IMG/VR virus record: IMGVR_UViG_3300025879_000049 | Span: 1 to 37,114 of that record | Origin: a virus | DNA length: 37,114 nt | Direction: 5' to 3' (one strand) | Part shown: positions 3,380 through 31,887 of the stretch, piece by piece | Position numbering within the stretch: the stretch's first letter is position 1 | How the letters are laid out: every line of letters starts with the position of its first letter | Notes under the pieces: model-generated | The model's input: only the letters and a program-made list of their open reading frames with translations | What the model was told of the DNA's origin: nothing | The model's database searches: none | Translations under genes and position numbers: made by a program

Positions 3380-4495
3380 ATGATTGAAACGTCTATGCTA
3401 AAGCGTGGTGCCAATCGAGTTTGGGTGCTAGGTGATTTACATTTTGGAGTGAGAGCTAATTCCGTAGAATGGTTAGATATTCAAAAACAATTCTTTGAAG
3501 AGGTTTTTATACCCACTTTAAAAGAAAATGTTAAACCAGGCGATGTTTTAGTGCAAGTCGGTGATACCTTTGATAATAGACAATCTATTAATATTAGAGT
3601 ACTTAATTACGCTGTAGATTTATTTGAAAGATTAGGTCAAATTCTTCCAGTACATATCATATGTGGTAATCATGATATCTGGGCTAAAAATTCAAATGAA
3701 GTGACTTCAATAGATTCACTTAAATGGATTCCTGGAGTACAGATCTATAAAGAGCCTAAATTAATGGATTGGTCAGGTAGAAAAATATTAATGATGCCAT
3801 GGCGTAGAGATGCAGACCATGAAGCAGAAACATTGGCAGATTATCCAACAGCAGAAATTGTATTTTGTCACTCTGAAGTTAAGGGTATCTACTTAAATGC
3901 TAAAGTAAAAAATGAACATGGAACAGATTCCAATATTTATGACAAATACACCAGAGTCTTTAGTGGTCATATTCATTTTAGACAAGAACGCGGTAAATTA
4001 TTAATGGTTGGAACCCCGTATCAATTAACAAGGTCTGATGCAAATAACACAAAAGGATTTGATCTCGTTGATTTAGAAGATATGTCGGAGACCTTTTATC
4101 CAAATGATGTGTCACCTAAGTTTATGAAATATAACATCACACAACTGTACGATATGCCACTGGGTCAGTTTAAAAATCAAATTAGAAATAATTTTGTAGA
4201 TTTATTTGTACCTTCTAGGATAGCAACTACTAACGCTCTCAGTAAACTGATTAATAAAATACAAAATATTAGTAGAAAATTAGAACCAAACATTTATCAA
4301 GAAGAAAATTACATAGACAAAGATTTTTATGACATGGATGATGTTGAAGAAATGTATAAAAATTATAGCATTATGAATTTATGTAATGTTTATGTTGATG
4401 GATTAGGTGATGATGAAGAAACTAAGTCAAGATTAAAGAAAAAACTAAAAGCACTTTATAATCAATGTGCTCATGATAACGGTACTGAAATATGA
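3380..4495 (+). CDS. 47: gp47-like recombination nuclease subunit (SbcD/Mre11 family)
   Basis: A 371-residue calcineurin-like phosphoesterase. All metal-binding motifs are present in order: GDLHFG (D19, H21), VGDTFDNR (D62), GNHD (N97-H98-D99), FCHSEV (H164) and SGHIHF (H197, H199). With gp46 it forms the Mre11/Rad50-type complex that processes DNA ends for recombination and, in T4, degrades host DNA. Length is slightly above T4 gp47 (339). The stop overlaps gp46 by four bases (ATGA), so the two subunits are translationally coupled. Confidence 0.93.
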   Translation: MIETSMLKRGANRVWVLGDLHFGVRANSVEWLDIQKQFFEEVFIPTLKENVKPGDVLVQVGDTFDNRQSINIRVLNYAVDLFERLGQILPVHIICGNHDIWAKNSNEVTSIDSLKWIPGVQIYKEPKLMDWSGRKILMMPWRRDADHEAETLADYPTAEIVFCHSEVKGIYLNAKVKNEHGTDSNIYDKYTRVFSGHIHFRQERGKLLMVGTPYQLTRSDANNTKGFDLVDLEDMSETFYPNDVSPKFMKYNITQLYDMPLGQFKNQIRNNFVDLFVPSRIATTNALSKLINKIQNISRKLEPNIYQEENYIDKDFYDMDDVEEMYKNYSIMNLCNVYVDGLGDDEETKSRLKKKLKALYNQCAHDNGTEI

Positions 4496-26877: not shown

Positions 26878-29724
26878 ATGGCATTAAGTCCTCAATTATT
26901 ACAGTTCAAAAGCTCAGGCGTATATCGCTTAGAGTTTGACAAATCACAAACAGTGAACATTCCGGCTGAAACTATCAGATTGGTTGTTGGTAGATCTAAA
27001 AAAGGTCCTTACAACACACCAGTATTTATTGAAAATGTTGAGCAATTTACTCAAGTTTTCGGTGGTATTGATAAATCTTTAGAAAAGAAAGGAATGTATT
27101 TCCACAGATCAGCAATCGAAACTCTTTCTAGAGGGCCGATCTTAGCTTTAAACCTAACAGCAGCGGATGCTGAAGATAGAATTGCAATGGTTTCACCAGC
27201 AACTAATTCTTCTGAAGAAGGTTTATCAGCTAAAACAGCATCTGTACAATATAGTAGCATTTTTGATACTGATAAATTCTGGGTTCCTTCAGATATTGAA
27301 GTATTAGAAGCTGCTGGAAATTCAGACGAAACATCAAACAATGCAATTACTTTTGCTAACATCAAACAAGAGCCAATCTCAGTTATCGTAAGACAAGCTG
27401 CTAATACTGCTGGTTTTGAAATGACAGCAAGAGAATGGTACGGTGAAGGTAATGTACCAGACGGTATTGAAGATTTAGAATACGTATCTGATTATATGGT
27501 AGATGTATTTGTATTTAAAGGATCTTATGATTCTGAAAAATTACAAAACGATCCAACATACGGTTCATTCTTTAACGAACACGGTTTACACAGAAATCAA
27601 TTGGCTAAATTTACTGCTTTAAGAGAAGTTAGTTTAGTAGCACAATACACAGGTTCAGTAATTCCTGAATTCCAAGATCAAGAAGGTCGTCAATTATACA
27701 TTGAGACTTTAATTAACTTGGAAGCTAGAAGAACTGGTTTATTCTGTGCTATCAACGAAGATGCTCTAGAAAATATTGATTTCGTAGGTGAAAACTTCGA
27801 TATCTATCAAGATTATAAAGTTCTTTCTCACAGAGTTGAACAAGATGCTACACCAGACATATTATCTTTATCTAAAGTAATGATAGTAGATGGTAATGAA
27901 TTAACTATCGAAGGAGCAACACTATCTGAATTAACTTTATTAGGTATTTCAGAGAGCGGATTCTTAAGAGCTGAAATCGATGGAGAATTTACACCTATTT
28001 CTGCAATTTACGAAGATGGTGCTAACGTAATCGTTGAATGTGAAAGCGCTATTAAAGCTTCTACATTTGAATCTTATGAATTAGGTTTAGCTGCAACATT
28101 CCACGCAGGAGAAATCACAGTTGTTGACGGAGATATCTATATCGCAGCACCAGTAGTTGGAGCGGATCCAGCTGGTAAATTCCTTACATCAGGTAGCGTA
28201 ATCTTAGGTAACTTCTTACTAGGATCAAACGGTATTGATTATGTTAAAATTTCACAAGTTACTGAATTATTTAATTTAGGTGGAGCAAACGTTATCAAAA
28301 TCACACCGGCTGCAGGAAAATCATTTAGCTCAACATATGCAACTGCATCAGCTACTTCTATCTCAGCATATTCTAGAAAAGCATCTGCAACATTTGAATT
28401 TACTACAATTGAGCCTAACTCAAGAGCGATTATGTTACCAACACAAACTGATAACTATTCATTCTTACCAATCGGTGCAGGTCAATTTAGATTATCTGCT
28501 ACATTAGAAGATGATACATTTGATTGGACATCAGTTTCAGTTGGTATGTACATTCCAGCAGATGAAGGTAAATTAGCAAGAATTAAAAGAATTATCAAGA
28601 CAGTTGTTGGTGGATCAAACGTATATACATTTGAATGTCACAGACCAGTATCTGAGAGACCAGGATATGCTCTTAAAAGATATGAAGAAAGTACTTCAAC
28701 ATATACTATGTTCCCATTAGCGGCTGCAACACAATCTGAAAAATCAATTGCTGAATTGTTAACACAATTAAGACCAGGTAATGGTTTATCAAATACTTTA
28801 ATTGACAAAGACGCAATTACATTTAGATATGTTGTTGATACATTTGGATCATTAGAAAATGGAGGTATTCTTAACAAAGAAGAAATTACTCAACTTTGTA
28901 AAGAAAGACAAAATGCTTCTGCGATTCTTAACGCACCGATGGTGAAAGAATTTAAAGCAGCTACTAACCCTTCATTTAAAGATGCTAATACTGGATCATT
29001 CGAAACTAGATTAGTAGCAACTGGCGGTAACTTAGAACTTAACCCTACTGCAGTCTACACATTACCATCTATCAACGAGGGTGCAAACTTCGGTTTCTAC
29101 TACTCACCGGGTCTTAATGTATTAGAAAATGGTAGAACTAAAGTTATTCCACCAGCGGCTTACATATCAAACAACTATATCGATAAATATTTAGACGCAT
29201 TACCATGGTCTATCATCGCAGGACCAAGAAGAGGTGTTGTAGGTGGTACAGGTGTACAAGGTCTAGAATTTGCATTCGATAAGAACGATAGAGATTACTT
29301 AGAGCCATTCGGTATCAACCCAATCGTATTCGAAAGAGGCGTTGGTTTGACTATCAAAGGTAATAAGACTGCACAACAATCAGTTCAATCAGCATTGTCT
29401 TCAGCTCACGTAAGAGAAGCAATGATCTACATTGAAGATGGTTTAGCAGAAATCTTGAAAAACTACTTATTCGAGTTTAACAATGCTCAAACAAGATTAG
29501 AGATTAAAACTTTAGCTGACTCATTCATGGAATCAGTGAAGAAAGACGGAGGTGTATACGACTATAGAAACGTTATGGACGGATCCAACAACACTAACGA
29601 AGTAATCGATAATAATATGGGTATTTTAGATACATTTGTTGAGCCAGTTAAAGGTCTTGAGATCTTAGTATCGAGAGTAACTATCTTGAACACGGGTGAA
29701 ATTGCAACCGGAAACTTTGCATAA
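26878..29724 (+). CDS. 18: gp18-like contractile tail sheath protein
   Basis: A 948-residue protein, far longer than T4 gp18 (659). The N-terminal region (SSGVYRLEFDKSQ, LVVGRSKKGPYNTPVFI, FTQVFGG) and the C-terminal region (LPWSIIAGPRRGVVGG, EPFGINPIVF, SALSSAHVREAMIYIEDGL, LKNYLFEFNN, ending GLEILVSRVTI) are the conserved sheath core. The middle (about 300-620) is a beta-rich, Gly/Ala/Ser-rich insertion, probably one or more domains exposed on the sheath surface. The protein polymerises around the tube and contracts on infection. Codon use resembles that of the capsid gene, in line with abundant expression. Confidence 0.93.
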   Translation: MALSPQLLQFKSSGVYRLEFDKSQTVNIPAETIRLVVGRSKKGPYNTPVFIENVEQFTQVFGGIDKSLEKKGMYFHRSAIETLSRGPILALNLTAADAEDRIAMVSPATNSSEEGLSAKTASVQYSSIFDTDKFWVPSDIEVLEAAGNSDETSNNAITFANIKQEPISVIVRQAANTAGFEMTAREWYGEGNVPDGIEDLEYVSDYMVDVFVFKGSYDSEKLQNDPTYGSFFNEHGLHRNQLAKFTALREVSLVAQYTGSVIPEFQDQEGRQLYIETLINLEARRTGLFCAINEDALENIDFVGENFDIYQDYKVLSHRVEQDATPDILSLSKVMIVDGNELTIEGATLSELTLLGISESGFLRAEIDGEFTPISAIYEDGANVIVECESAIKASTFESYELGLAATFHAGEITVVDGDIYIAAPVVGADPAGKFLTSGSVILGNFLLGSNGIDYVKISQVTELFNLGGANVIKITPAAGKSFSSTYATASATSISAYSRKASATFEFTTIEPNSRAIMLPTQTDNYSFLPIGAGQFRLSATLEDDTFDWTSVSVGMYIPADEGKLARIKRIIKTVVGGSNVYTFECHRPVSERPGYALKRYEESTSTYTMFPLAAATQSEKSIAELLTQLRPGNGLSNTLIDKDAITFRYVVDTFGSLENGGILNKEEITQLCKERQNASAILNAPMVKEFKAATNPSFKDANTGSFETRLVATGGNLELNPTAVYTLPSINEGANFGFYYSPGLNVLENGRTKVIPPAAYISNNYIDKYLDALPWSIIAGPRRGVVGGTGVQGLEFAFDKNDRDYLEPFGINPIVFERGVGLTIKGNKTAQQSVQSALSSAHVREAMIYIEDGLAEILKNYLFEFNNAQTRLEIKTLADSFMESVKKDGGVYDYRNVMDGSNNTNEVIDNNMGILDTFVEPVKGLEILVSRVTILNTGEIATGNFA

Positions 29725-29759: not shown

Positions 29760-30317
29760 ATGGCTTTACCACATTATTCAGAAGATCAAACACAGAAGAA
29801 GGGCAAGAACTTCGAACCAGTACAGGCTAACCTGTTTGAGGTGACAATCTTACCTCCCGATGGTGTTGCCGGTCAAGAATTGTTATTACAACATGTAAAT
29901 TCAATTTCAGGCCTTGCAGGTTTACATAAAGATGTTGCTGCAATTGAGCAGAAGTATAAATTTGCTACTAGATCATTCGCTGGTATGGTAGACAATACTT
30001 CAATCGACGTAACTGTTAACTTTTCATTGAACCTAAATGATTCTAACCAAGCGTACTTATATAAAACTATGAGACAATGGTACAGAGCACAATATAATCC
30101 AGAAACTGGTGAAATGGGCTTGAAAAAGAATTACGTAGGAACTATTGTTATCGTACAATTTAATAGAGAAGGTGATATTTTTAGAAAAATCACATTAGAT
30201 GATTGTTTCATCACTTCAGGACTTGGATTTACGGATGCATTAGATTATTCAGCTGCAGACGTACAAACATTAGAGATCACTTGGAGATCTGATGTATACG
30301 CTGAGGAAGTAAACTAA
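29760..30317 (+). CDS. 19: gp19-like tail tube protein
   Basis: A 185-residue protein directly after the sheath, the gp18-gp19 order of T4 (gp19 is 163). It is the beta-rich Hcp-like fold of phage tubes: NLFEVTILPPDG at the start, YKFATRSFAGMVD, SIDVTVNFSLN, MRQWYRAQYNPETG and the ALDYSAADVQTLEITWRSD end that is typical of the family. It forms stacked hexamers of the rigid tube through which DNA passes. The call is confident. Confidence 0.92.
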   Translation: MALPHYSEDQTQKKGKNFEPVQANLFEVTILPPDGVAGQELLLQHVNSISGLAGLHKDVAAIEQKYKFATRSFAGMVDNTSIDVTVNFSLNLNDSNQAYLYKTMRQWYRAQYNPETGEMGLKKNYVGTIVIVQFNREGDIFRKITLDDCFITSGLGFTDALDYSAADVQTLEITWRSDVYAEEVN

Positions 30318-30636: not shown

Positions 30637-31640
30637 GCGAAGAATTAAACAAAAAAGAAGAAGCGGCAAAAGCAATGCTAGACGCTAGGGATCAAATTAA
30701 TAATCCACAGACTTCTAATGATTCGACAGTTGAAGATGTTTCAGTAGAAATGTTGAGCGCAGTTGAATCCAATGGATTAGGTAGAGTTAATATGGACAAT
30801 TTTGGACAAGCAAGACCAGAAAAGTCTGCGGACCAATTCTTAGGATGGATGGTTCTAGATCAAGAAGAATTACCATCTAAAGGTAAATTTTACCCCAATG
30901 GTACAGTAATTAAGATTAGATCTGCAAGAGCATCTGAGATTAGACATTTTTCTACTATGGATGAAAACAACTATATTGACATGGAAGAGAAATTGAACCA
31001 CATTGTAGAAATGTGTACTCAATTAACGGTGGATGAAAAGAGATTATCTTATAAAGATATTTTAGAAGAAGATAGAATTGTAATTCTATTAGCAATTAGA
31101 GATCTTACTTTCCCTGAACCAGAAAACAAATTGATTCTTAAGGGTAAAACTGAAAACAGTAAAATTCCAGTTGATATTGAATTGTCATCTAGATATTTAG
31201 TAGCCACACAGGTTCCTAATGAAATTGAGGCATACTATAGTTCTAAAGAAAGAACATACGTTATTAAGACTAGATCTGCTGGTGAAGTTAGAATGCGTCC
31301 GCCTTCAATTGGTGTTATGCAAGAAATTACTAAATATCTAAAGGATCGTCAAGAAAAAGAAGTTGAGTTTGATAAAGCATTTATCCAAGTTCTACCTTAT
31401 ATCACGCCAGATTGGAGACAAGTAAATCTACCTAAAATATTTAACTTAGAAGTTGATTACAAATCATGGGATCAAAATAAGTTTATGGTTATCTATAGAC
31501 TTGCTGAGAAAATGAAAATTGGAGTTGAAACAACACTTGAAATGGAATTCGAAGGAGAAATTGCGAAAGCCCCTCTTGATTTCCCAGGTGGCATCAAAAG
31601 TCTTTTCATTATTTCAGATCTCGCTGGAGAATTACTTTAA
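30633..31640 (+). CDS. Tail assembly chaperone, G-like (upstream frame)
   Basis: A 335-residue protein. After a disordered N-terminal 70 residues, the core follows the T4 gp26/cyanophage hub-chaperone pattern: LPSKGKFYPNGTVIKI, SEIRHFSTMDENNYIDM, LNHIVEMCTQL, DILEEDRIVILLAIRDLTF and IPVDIEL. It lies directly upstream of the tape-measure-like gene, as G/GT chaperones do in many tailed phages. The last codons are ELL-stop (CTT TAA G), a favourable +1 slip site that would add 82 residues of the overlapping frame to make a 417-residue fusion. The family is assigned from pattern and position. Confidence 0.7.
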   Translation: MSEELNKKEEAAKAMLDARDQINNPQTSNDSTVEDVSVEMLSAVESNGLGRVNMDNFGQARPEKSADQFLGWMVLDQEELPSKGKFYPNGTVIKIRSARASEIRHFSTMDENNYIDMEEKLNHIVEMCTQLTVDEKRLSYKDILEEDRIVILLAIRDLTFPEPENKLILKGKTENSKIPVDIELSSRYLVATQVPNEIEAYYSSKERTYVIKTRSAGEVRMRPPSIGVMQEITKYLKDRQEKEVEFDKAFIQVLPYITPDWRQVNLPKIFNLEVDYKSWDQNKFMVIYRLAEKMKIGVETTLEMEFEGEIAKAPLDFPGGIKSLFIISDLAGELL

Positions 31641-31887
31641 GACTAAGTTCTATCTGGGCATACATCTCAGAATGCAACCTTCAGAAGTTGATAATTTATA
31701 TTACTACGAGTATTGGTATTATGTTAAAAACCTGTCGGATTACATTAAAGAGAAGAATAATCAGAATAAGGATCAAGAAGAACAACAGGCACAACAACAG
31801 AATCAGATGAGTTCTAAATATAAAACGCCTGCGATGCCTAAGATCCCACAAATGAAAGCACCTTCAATGAAGATGCCTAAATTTTAA
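31588..31887 (+). CDS. Tail assembly chaperone, T-like (downstream frame)
   Basis: This overlapping reading frame is real in content but lacks a good start. It reads FYLGIHLRMQPSEVDNLYYY, then EYWYYVKNLSDYIKEKN, the aromatic-rich helical signature of the second tail-chaperone frame, then a Gln/Met/Pro-rich tail. A TGA at 31513 limits it upstream. GTG at 31588 could start a 99-residue protein; a TTG at 31519 and ATG at 31672 are less likely. The simpler explanation is translation by +1 frameshifting from the upstream gene at 31635-31641, giving 82 fused residues. Both products are possible. Confidence 0.65.
   Translation: MASKVFSLFQISLENYFKTKFYLGIHLRMQPSEVDNLYYYEYWYYVKNLSDYIKEKNNQNKDQEEQQAQQQNQMSSKYKTPAMPKIPQMKAPSMKMPKF
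31626..31641 (+). other. Putative +1 programmed frameshift site
   Basis: GGAG (31626-31629), five bases, then CTT-TAA-G (31635-31641). Slipping one base forward on CTT reads AAG next and exactly enters the T-like frame. It mirrors the RF2 (prfB) site, where an SD-like AGGGGG precedes CUU-UGA-C. Confidence 0.5.

Follow-up and report, generated by a model that had tools for sequence, protein, structure and literature searches.

Tail-chaperone frameshifting is a classic form of recoding that is most familiar as a −1 slip, and tailed phages variously use −1, −2 or +1 shifts, the +1 shift being described as very likely in archaeal HSTV-2 in a recoding review (PMC5009743). The locus analysed here shares with lambda G/GT and other TAC-N/TAC-NC frameshifts a position between the tube gene and the (probable) tape measure gene, a start common to both products and a shift near the 3′ end; whereas the lambda G/GT type is commonly −1, the shift here would be +1, probably at UUU_C, with an SD-like element upstream of it and an extended dual-coding overlap. 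A further comparison is offered by the T4 gp26/gp51 “baseplate hub” chaperones, as the model of our first open reading frame (ORF1) matches BFVD proteins so named; here one gene appears to make both forms by a +1 shift. T4-like phages reportedly use a mechanism other than frameshifting, to go by the title of Vladimirov et al. 2022. PMC12846349 credits Vladimirov et al. 2022 with −1 slippery sequences in T4-like TAC-N genes.

With prfB (RF2) the locus would share a +1 shift with an SD-like element, a combination that is common in Bacteroidia despite a hidden anti-SD (PMC8710568); the SD lies 3 nt from the slip codon in prfB and 17 nt from it here, the A-site codon is a stop in prfB and a sense codon here, and the slip codon is CUU in prfB and not CUU here. 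The influenza PA-X shift site is UUU_CGU (PMC3498833). With this UUU_CGN class the sites of most relatives share UUU_C, on which the P-site Phe-tRNA would move to UUC, and the next codons CGU, CGC and CGA occur among the relatives too, the window’s own clade having TTC_CCA instead; PA-X, in contrast, belongs to a eukaryotic virus, shifts at low efficiency and has no evident stimulatory signal, and the phage sites here mostly carry Pro codons (CCC, CCA, CCT). Schwartz and Curran (1997) are said to have worked on UUU-pyrimidine sites. The recoding review names UUU_Ynn as especially +1-prone in bacteria and likewise gives YopN-TyeA, an unrelated gene, as a bacterial UUU_Ynn +1 shift (PMC5009743).

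Among the literature matches listed, which consisted of titles and abstract openings with subscription papers mostly beyond reach, none dealt with this site or with +1 frameshifting in Bacteroidota phage tail genes. The DNA analysed is the IMG/VR virus fragment IMGVR_UViG_3300025879_000049 (37,114 bases, hereafter the window), which comes from a contractile-tailed phage. On comparative sequence grounds, we consider it very likely that a tail-assembly chaperone gene in this fragment undergoes programmed +1 frameshifting, with a slip about 19 codons before the ORF1 stop and with a short and a long form as its products.

Sequences analysed

The close loci were the best 80 of 131 found in IMG/VR. 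A tblastn search yielded 31 phage records, and further loci, among the matches listed, were added by later scans. Several relatives in this family of tailed phages infect Bacteroidota; those with names are phages of Prevotella (Lak), Chryseobacterium, Tenacibaculum and Flavobacterium and Sphingomonas phage PAU, and there are other large phages besides; a search for relatives seeded with MA9V-2 found none, and one seeded with PAU found PAU only. One phage locus (L178, contig CAIQHU010000041.1) is carried by a MAG labelled beta proteobacterium and is possibly a misbinned phage contig.

Substitution events were counted on a tree of 143 distinct sequences, which left out the distant loci that do not align gap-free (L082-L092), L241 with two extra codons, the duplicates L093 and L098, the split version of the locus (L108/L109/L193/L194), and sequences that contain N or are too short. 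The distant loci and L108 were retained in a set of 112 distinct ends. All counts are of distinct sequences that are related to one another and so not independent.

Gene neighbourhood and protein models

The window encodes a sheath, a tube, a short ORF, the pair formed by ORF1 and the +1 frame, and then a 1307-aa protein for which Pfam and PHROG searches returned no match (Table 1); the placement of the pair between the tube gene and the (probable) tape measure gene is that of tail-assembly chaperone frameshift genes. As listed, the second frame opens at TTG 31519, inside ORF1. MA9V-1 carries, after the chaperone pair and ahead of the next large gene, an annotated glycoside hydrolase family 16 gene (L086 4154-6235); MA9V-2 (L082) has no gene annotated there.

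The AF2 model of ORF1 has a mean pLDDT of 82. A Foldseek search of BFVD matched it to Gp93 of an uncultured marine phage and to PTm1 and pT24 proteins, followed by T4-type gp26/gp51 “baseplate hub” proteins, with E-values of 2e-10 for SP-15, 1.4e-3 for Aeromonas phage 25 Gp26 and 7.5e-3 for a CP21 gp51-like protein. As matched among predicted models, the ORF1 fold resembles that of the T4 gp26/gp51 chaperones, and we infer a chaperone function for it. The model had no PDB match at E ≤ 0.001, ORF1 had no Pfam family at E ≤ 0.1, and its PHROG match is 36717, a PHROG of unknown function. When the 100-aa +1 piece was modelled alone, AF2 placed helices at residues 2-27, 32-36 and 40-78, and a BFVD fold search with this piece gave no match at E ≤ 0.001.

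Table 1. Features of the chaperone locus and its context (window coordinates unless a locus is named)
Feature	Position	Strand	Remark
Tail sheath protein	26878..29724	+	PHROG; context gene
Tail tube protein	29760..30317	+	PHROG; context gene
ORF1, short chaperone, TAC-N-like, 335 aa	30633..31640	+	Model resembles T4 gp26/gp51-type proteins
SD-like AAGGAG, upstream of slip region	31552..31557	+	Distance from the end of its GGAG: 23 nt to TTC 31581, 14 nt to CCT 31572
CCT CTT, candidate slip site (one of two)	31572..31577	+	CCT CTY in 37/37 distinct TTC-class sequences
TTC CCA, other candidate slip site	31581..31586	+	Homologue of the relatives’ TTT_C
+1-frame C-terminal part	31585..31887	+	100 aa for a slip at TTC_CCA; the ORF1 stop position lies within the first predicted helix
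Dual-coding stretch	31594..31637	+	+1 frame S-K-V-F-S-L-F-Q-I-S-L-E-N-Y-F constrained while frame 0 runs on to its stop
GGAG-AATTA-CTT-TAA-G, site of the original prediction	31626..31641	+	Present; considered not to be where the slip occurs
Probable tape measure protein, 1307 aa	31963..35886	+	Position, length, hydrophobic repeats
Split version of the locus	L108 1501-2647		Also L109; L193 and L194 are the same contigs

Two conserved frames in a +1 relation

The bases, frames and spacings of the original prediction are correct: ORF1 ends GGA GAA TTA CTT TAA G, with GGAG (31626-31629) five bases 5′ of CTT (31635-31637) and TAA at 31638-31640, and skipping one base at the ORF1 end leads into KTKFYLGIHLRMQPSE..., which adds 82 residues and gives a 417-residue fusion. 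A long open frame after a stop is common in the window, where 9 of the 31 other listed ORFs also have one of at least 80 codons, in each case the next listed ORF, and the case therefore rests on conservation. That two tail-chaperone-like frames are linked by a +1 shift is supported by 79 of 80 close relatives (best 80 of 131), in which ORF1 ends CTT TAA and the +1 frame stays open as far as its own stop or the contig end, the one exception (L037) running off its contig. This is further strengthened by more distant phage loci, 12 from 10 lineages, all of which likewise have a +1 second frame that stays open across the junction. In Lak-B5 (L083) an open +1 frame requires that TAG be read as a sense codon, which agrees with the recoding of Lak phages, where the stop TAG is read as sense. 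Lak-C1 (L085) has no such TAG stop in its +1 frame.

The same arrangement could arise if the downstream frame were an independent gene with a weak or non-canonical start of its own and translational coupling. We scanned the +1 frame from its nearest upstream stop to nine codons past the ORF1 stop and found no ATG in 66 of 105 distinct sequences and none of ATG, GTG or TTG in 12; the commonest candidate, GTG at −50, occurred in 44. A conserved ATG or GTG, named at the outset as an argument against frameshifting, is thus missing. Points in favour of a separate gene are the in-frame ATGs near the junction in MaF61 (L084) and PAU (L087), a GTG (31588) retained in the window’s clade, and the L108 lineage, in which a separate ORF2 has its own ATG four bases past the ORF1 stop (L109 is identical there). 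Weighing these against the start scan, we hold an independent gene to be very improbable.

In L108, the +1 frame stays open for just 8 codons past TTT_CCA, the upstream GGAGG is absent, and ORF2 retains the helix that other sequences encode upstream of the ORF1 stop. This lineage, a single one, is a natural control for the frameshift.

A probable frame change well before the ORF1 stop

The original prediction placed the slip itself at CTT_TAA-G (31635-31641), on the RF2 pattern, with the GGAG five bases upstream helping, and this part was not supported. On the 143-sequence tree, events at frame-0 positions 1/2/3 numbered 158/137/336 in codons −36 to −21, 77/16/28 in codons −10 to −1, and 329/133/40 in codons +1 to +15 after the ORF1 stop; on an earlier 109-sequence tree, positions 1 and 3 differed between the upstream region and the overlap with Fisher p = 4e-11, events being treated as independent. 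The +1-type periodicity in codons −10 to −1 indicates that reading in the +1 frame has begun at least 10 codons before CTT-TAA, an example of the +1-frame sequence upstream of KTKF being SLFQISLENYFK. The first predicted helix of the +1 piece (residues 2-27) crosses the ORF1 stop position, so that a shift at CTT-TAA would swap its first half for frame-0 residues.

An RF2-like slip would draw on the CTT found before the stop in 91 of the 112 distinct ends and in 79 of 80 close relatives (best 80 of 131), and CUU_U is the conserved RF2 shift site according to the recoding review (PMC5009743). The conservation of CTT-TAA was accordingly upheld among close relatives; beyond them it gave way, the last codon being TTA, CTA, TTT, ATT, GAG, TCT, GAA, AAG or AAA in 21 of the 112 ends. 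Among the 12 distant loci the codon is CTT in L081 and ATT, TTT, GAG, TCT, GAA, AAG, TTA or AAA in the other 11. GGAG stands at the proposed position in 52 of the 112 ends and is absent from 60. Read in the +1 frame, CTT TAA is TTT AAR (Phe-Lys), which lies in the overlap. Three features of prfB-type sites were tested, namely a conserved CUU before the stop, an SD a few nucleotides before CUU and a +1 frame that is unconstrained upstream, and none was found. A slip at CTT-TAA is, on this evidence, highly unlikely.

Constraint on frame 0 persists through the overlap, where ORF1 ends in Glu-Leu-Leu in all 95 sequences of the set without distant loci, despite codon changes. Frame 0 is thus also read there, and both the short and the long product are probably needed. 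In the close clade (55 distinct sequences) the last 23 ORF1 codons are nearly invariant save for the free base 31580 and rare changes, despite ORF1 proteins that differ by up to one third.

The onset of +1 constraint was bounded from both sides. The 109-sequence tree has 2 and 1 events at the third positions of codons −15 and −13 (the 143-sequence tree has 4 and 1), as against 14-35 events in 13 Ile columns and 15-26 in 10 Ala/Ser columns elsewhere on the 109-sequence tree, on which just 5 of 214 background columns had three events or fewer, one of the five being neither Met nor Trp. At codon −13 the frame-0 residue is free (Ala, Ser or Gly; Tyr, Thr, Asn or His in distant phages) and the +1 residue is Val, Ile or Leu, with exceptions in Lak, L241, the L173/L200/L201 clade and split L108. 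In 63 TTT-class sequences, +1 stops fall at codons −21/−20 in 19, at −22/−21 in one, and none lies nearer. The stop positions, combined with the constraint at −15 and −13, point to a slip near −19, about codons −20 to −16.

Third positions at −17, −16, −14 and −12 are free (14, 21, 14 and 17 events, 143-sequence tree) and would, taken by themselves, be compatible with a slip as far downstream as CTN|TTC at −12/−11. A +1 shift at CTT_TTC (31602-31607), or at the equivalent CTN TTC 11-12 codons before the stop, would agree with the free Leu third position (17 events) and with changes past TTC that mostly affect frame-0 first positions, which are third positions in the +1 frame, and the site is CUU_U in the window’s clade. 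The freedom of N in CTN means, however, that no tRNA re-pairing rule holds there, and the constraint at −15/−13, the TTT_C, CCC and CGN codons and the SD spacing would all be unexplained; we judge such a late slip improbable.

The UUU_C motif

The preferred slip near codon −19 coincides with a conserved motif. A scan of the 112 distinct ends for TTY_C, with C required and codons −24 to −16 allowed, found a Phe codon followed by C in 109, as TTT_C in 72 and TTC_CCA in 37; 103 of these matches are at −19 and 6 at −20 to −22. The codon after TTT is CCC in 49 ends, CCA in 7 (one of them split L108), CGT in 6, CAA in 4, CCT in 4, CGA in 1 and CGC in 1, and the residue after the slip-region Phe is accordingly Pro, Arg or Gln. 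The three ends without TTY_C (MA9V, L091 and PTm1) have no Phe-Arg pair at codons −24 to −16 and no GGAGG in the last 120 nt. In the 143 tree sequences, 78 of which also have TTT_C, the first base after the Phe codon shows 0 changes and the second base 3, here without requiring C.

Codon choice at this point departs from that of the ORF1 bodies. Arg after the Phe codon is CGN in 8 of 8 cases, where CGN makes up 15% of Arg codons in ORF1 bodies and AGA/AGG 85%, and CCC, 2% of Pro codons in ORF1 bodies, yet follows TTT in 49 of the 112 ends. UUU_C allows perfect re-pairing of tRNA-Phe one base forward, and in most relatives the best slip site is probably UUU_C, about 19 codons before the ORF1 stop.

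The same final frame would be reached by a −2 slip. This kind of shift is known in phage Mu (PMC5009743), an SD lying farther upstream than that of RF2 might pull backwards, and by eye the L108 ORF2 aligns as if with one extra residue. Inspection of the region showed no codon able to re-pair two bases back, whereas UUU_C re-pairs perfectly forward, and we regard a −2 slip as very improbable. Slips at CTN_TTC, AAA_A, GGN_GGN and any −2 slip were weighed and set aside.

The upstream SD-like element

A second conserved motif accompanies the UUU_C site. Of 109 sequences, 59 carry GGAGG in codons −29 to −23, compared with a mean of 3.1 and a maximum of 8 in 200 synonymous resamplings, and the spacing from its end to TTT is exactly 17 nt in 51 of 71; the remaining TTT-class sequences have GAGG or GGAG, other spacings from 0 to 28 nt, or nothing (2). 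The 17-nt spacing is far from the 3 nt of RF2, and no precedent for it was found. The prfB frameshift site of Flavobacterium johnsoniae, AGGAGGUAUCUUUGAC, keeps its SD even though the ribosomes hide the anti-SD (PMC8710568), which makes an SD effect in such hosts possible.

Weeksellaceae ribosomes have an altered anti-SD, UCUCA, according to the same source (PMC8710568). Chryseobacterium phage MA9V-2 (L082, about 3757-3876) has no GGAGG or TTY_C and has CGAGAC near the SD position; a match of this sequence to the Weeksellaceae anti-SD is hinted at by this one case and its four matching bases.

RNAalifold returned no consensus structure (energy 0) outside the window’s clade. Within that clade it gave a fold of −25.7 for nt −84 to +30, which the near-invariant sequences make uninformative. 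A GCCCCT/AGG(T)GGC hairpin noted by eye in the window’s clade was dropped, as a ribosome at the site would melt it.

The window’s own clade

The window belongs to the class with TTC_CCA, which is present in all 37 distinct sequences of the class, and the change from TTT to TTC arose once on the 143-sequence tree. TTC re-pairs poorly with Phe-tRNA in the +1 frame, so the window itself is without an ideal site. The slip region of this clade reads NNC CCT CTY NNN TTC CCA, where codons −23 and −22 (NNC CCT) show no third-position events, codon −21 is always CTT or CTC even though TTA and CTA make up 63% of Leu codons, and codon −20 is free (15 events). Window positions 31569-31579, GCCCCTCTTGA, are invariant in the close clade (codons −23 to −21, 0 third-position events), and the next base, 31580, is free. 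The nearest +1 stops lie 71 nt before the ORF1 stop in the 37 TTC-class sequences, and 21 or 23 nt separate the end of GGAG from TTC in 30 of the 37, 4-6 nt more than for GGAGG in the TTT class. The fixed codons −23 to −21, the free codon −20 and the greater distance of GGAG suggest that the slip has perhaps moved two or three codons upstream. They hint at CCT_CTT as its place in this clade, with TTC_CCA as the other candidate.

Proposed mechanism and implications

Most ribosomes would stop at the ORF1 end and yield the short chaperone. A minority would shift forward by one base some 19 codons ahead of the ORF1 stop, near the Phe-Pro/Arg/Gln codons, and their product would be a long form that joins the ORF1 body to a helical domain encoded in the +1 frame. 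At UUU_C, the probable site in most relatives, the P-site Phe-tRNA would go from pairing with UUU to pairing with UUC, aided by the SD-like GGAGG, usually 17 nt upstream; in the window’s clade the slip would fall within 31572-31586. The two forms may divide the work as in lambda G/GT, the short one coating the tape measure protein and the long one bringing in tube subunits. We tentatively propose, beyond this, a phage class of SD-assisted UUU_C +1 sites, mostly with a fixed 17-nt SD spacing, that works on the anti-SD-hiding ribosomes of Bacteroidota, and from which the window’s lineage may have moved its slip to NNC_CCU_CUY or UUC_CCA, without good tRNA re-pairing.

Annotation is also affected. 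The deposited records list the +1 part as a separate gene that starts inside the conserved domain in PAU (gp94, L087), MA9V-2 (MA9V2_060, L082), MA9V-1 (MA9V1_007, L086) and PTm1 (ORF-023, L092), and PHROG 8286 (54 aa) may be a fragment family of such split-annotated +1 parts.

If true, a conserved +1 shift among chaperones of the T4-type family would offer another solution to the same ratio problem. It would also suggest an internal SD at work on ribosomes that seldom use the SD for initiation.
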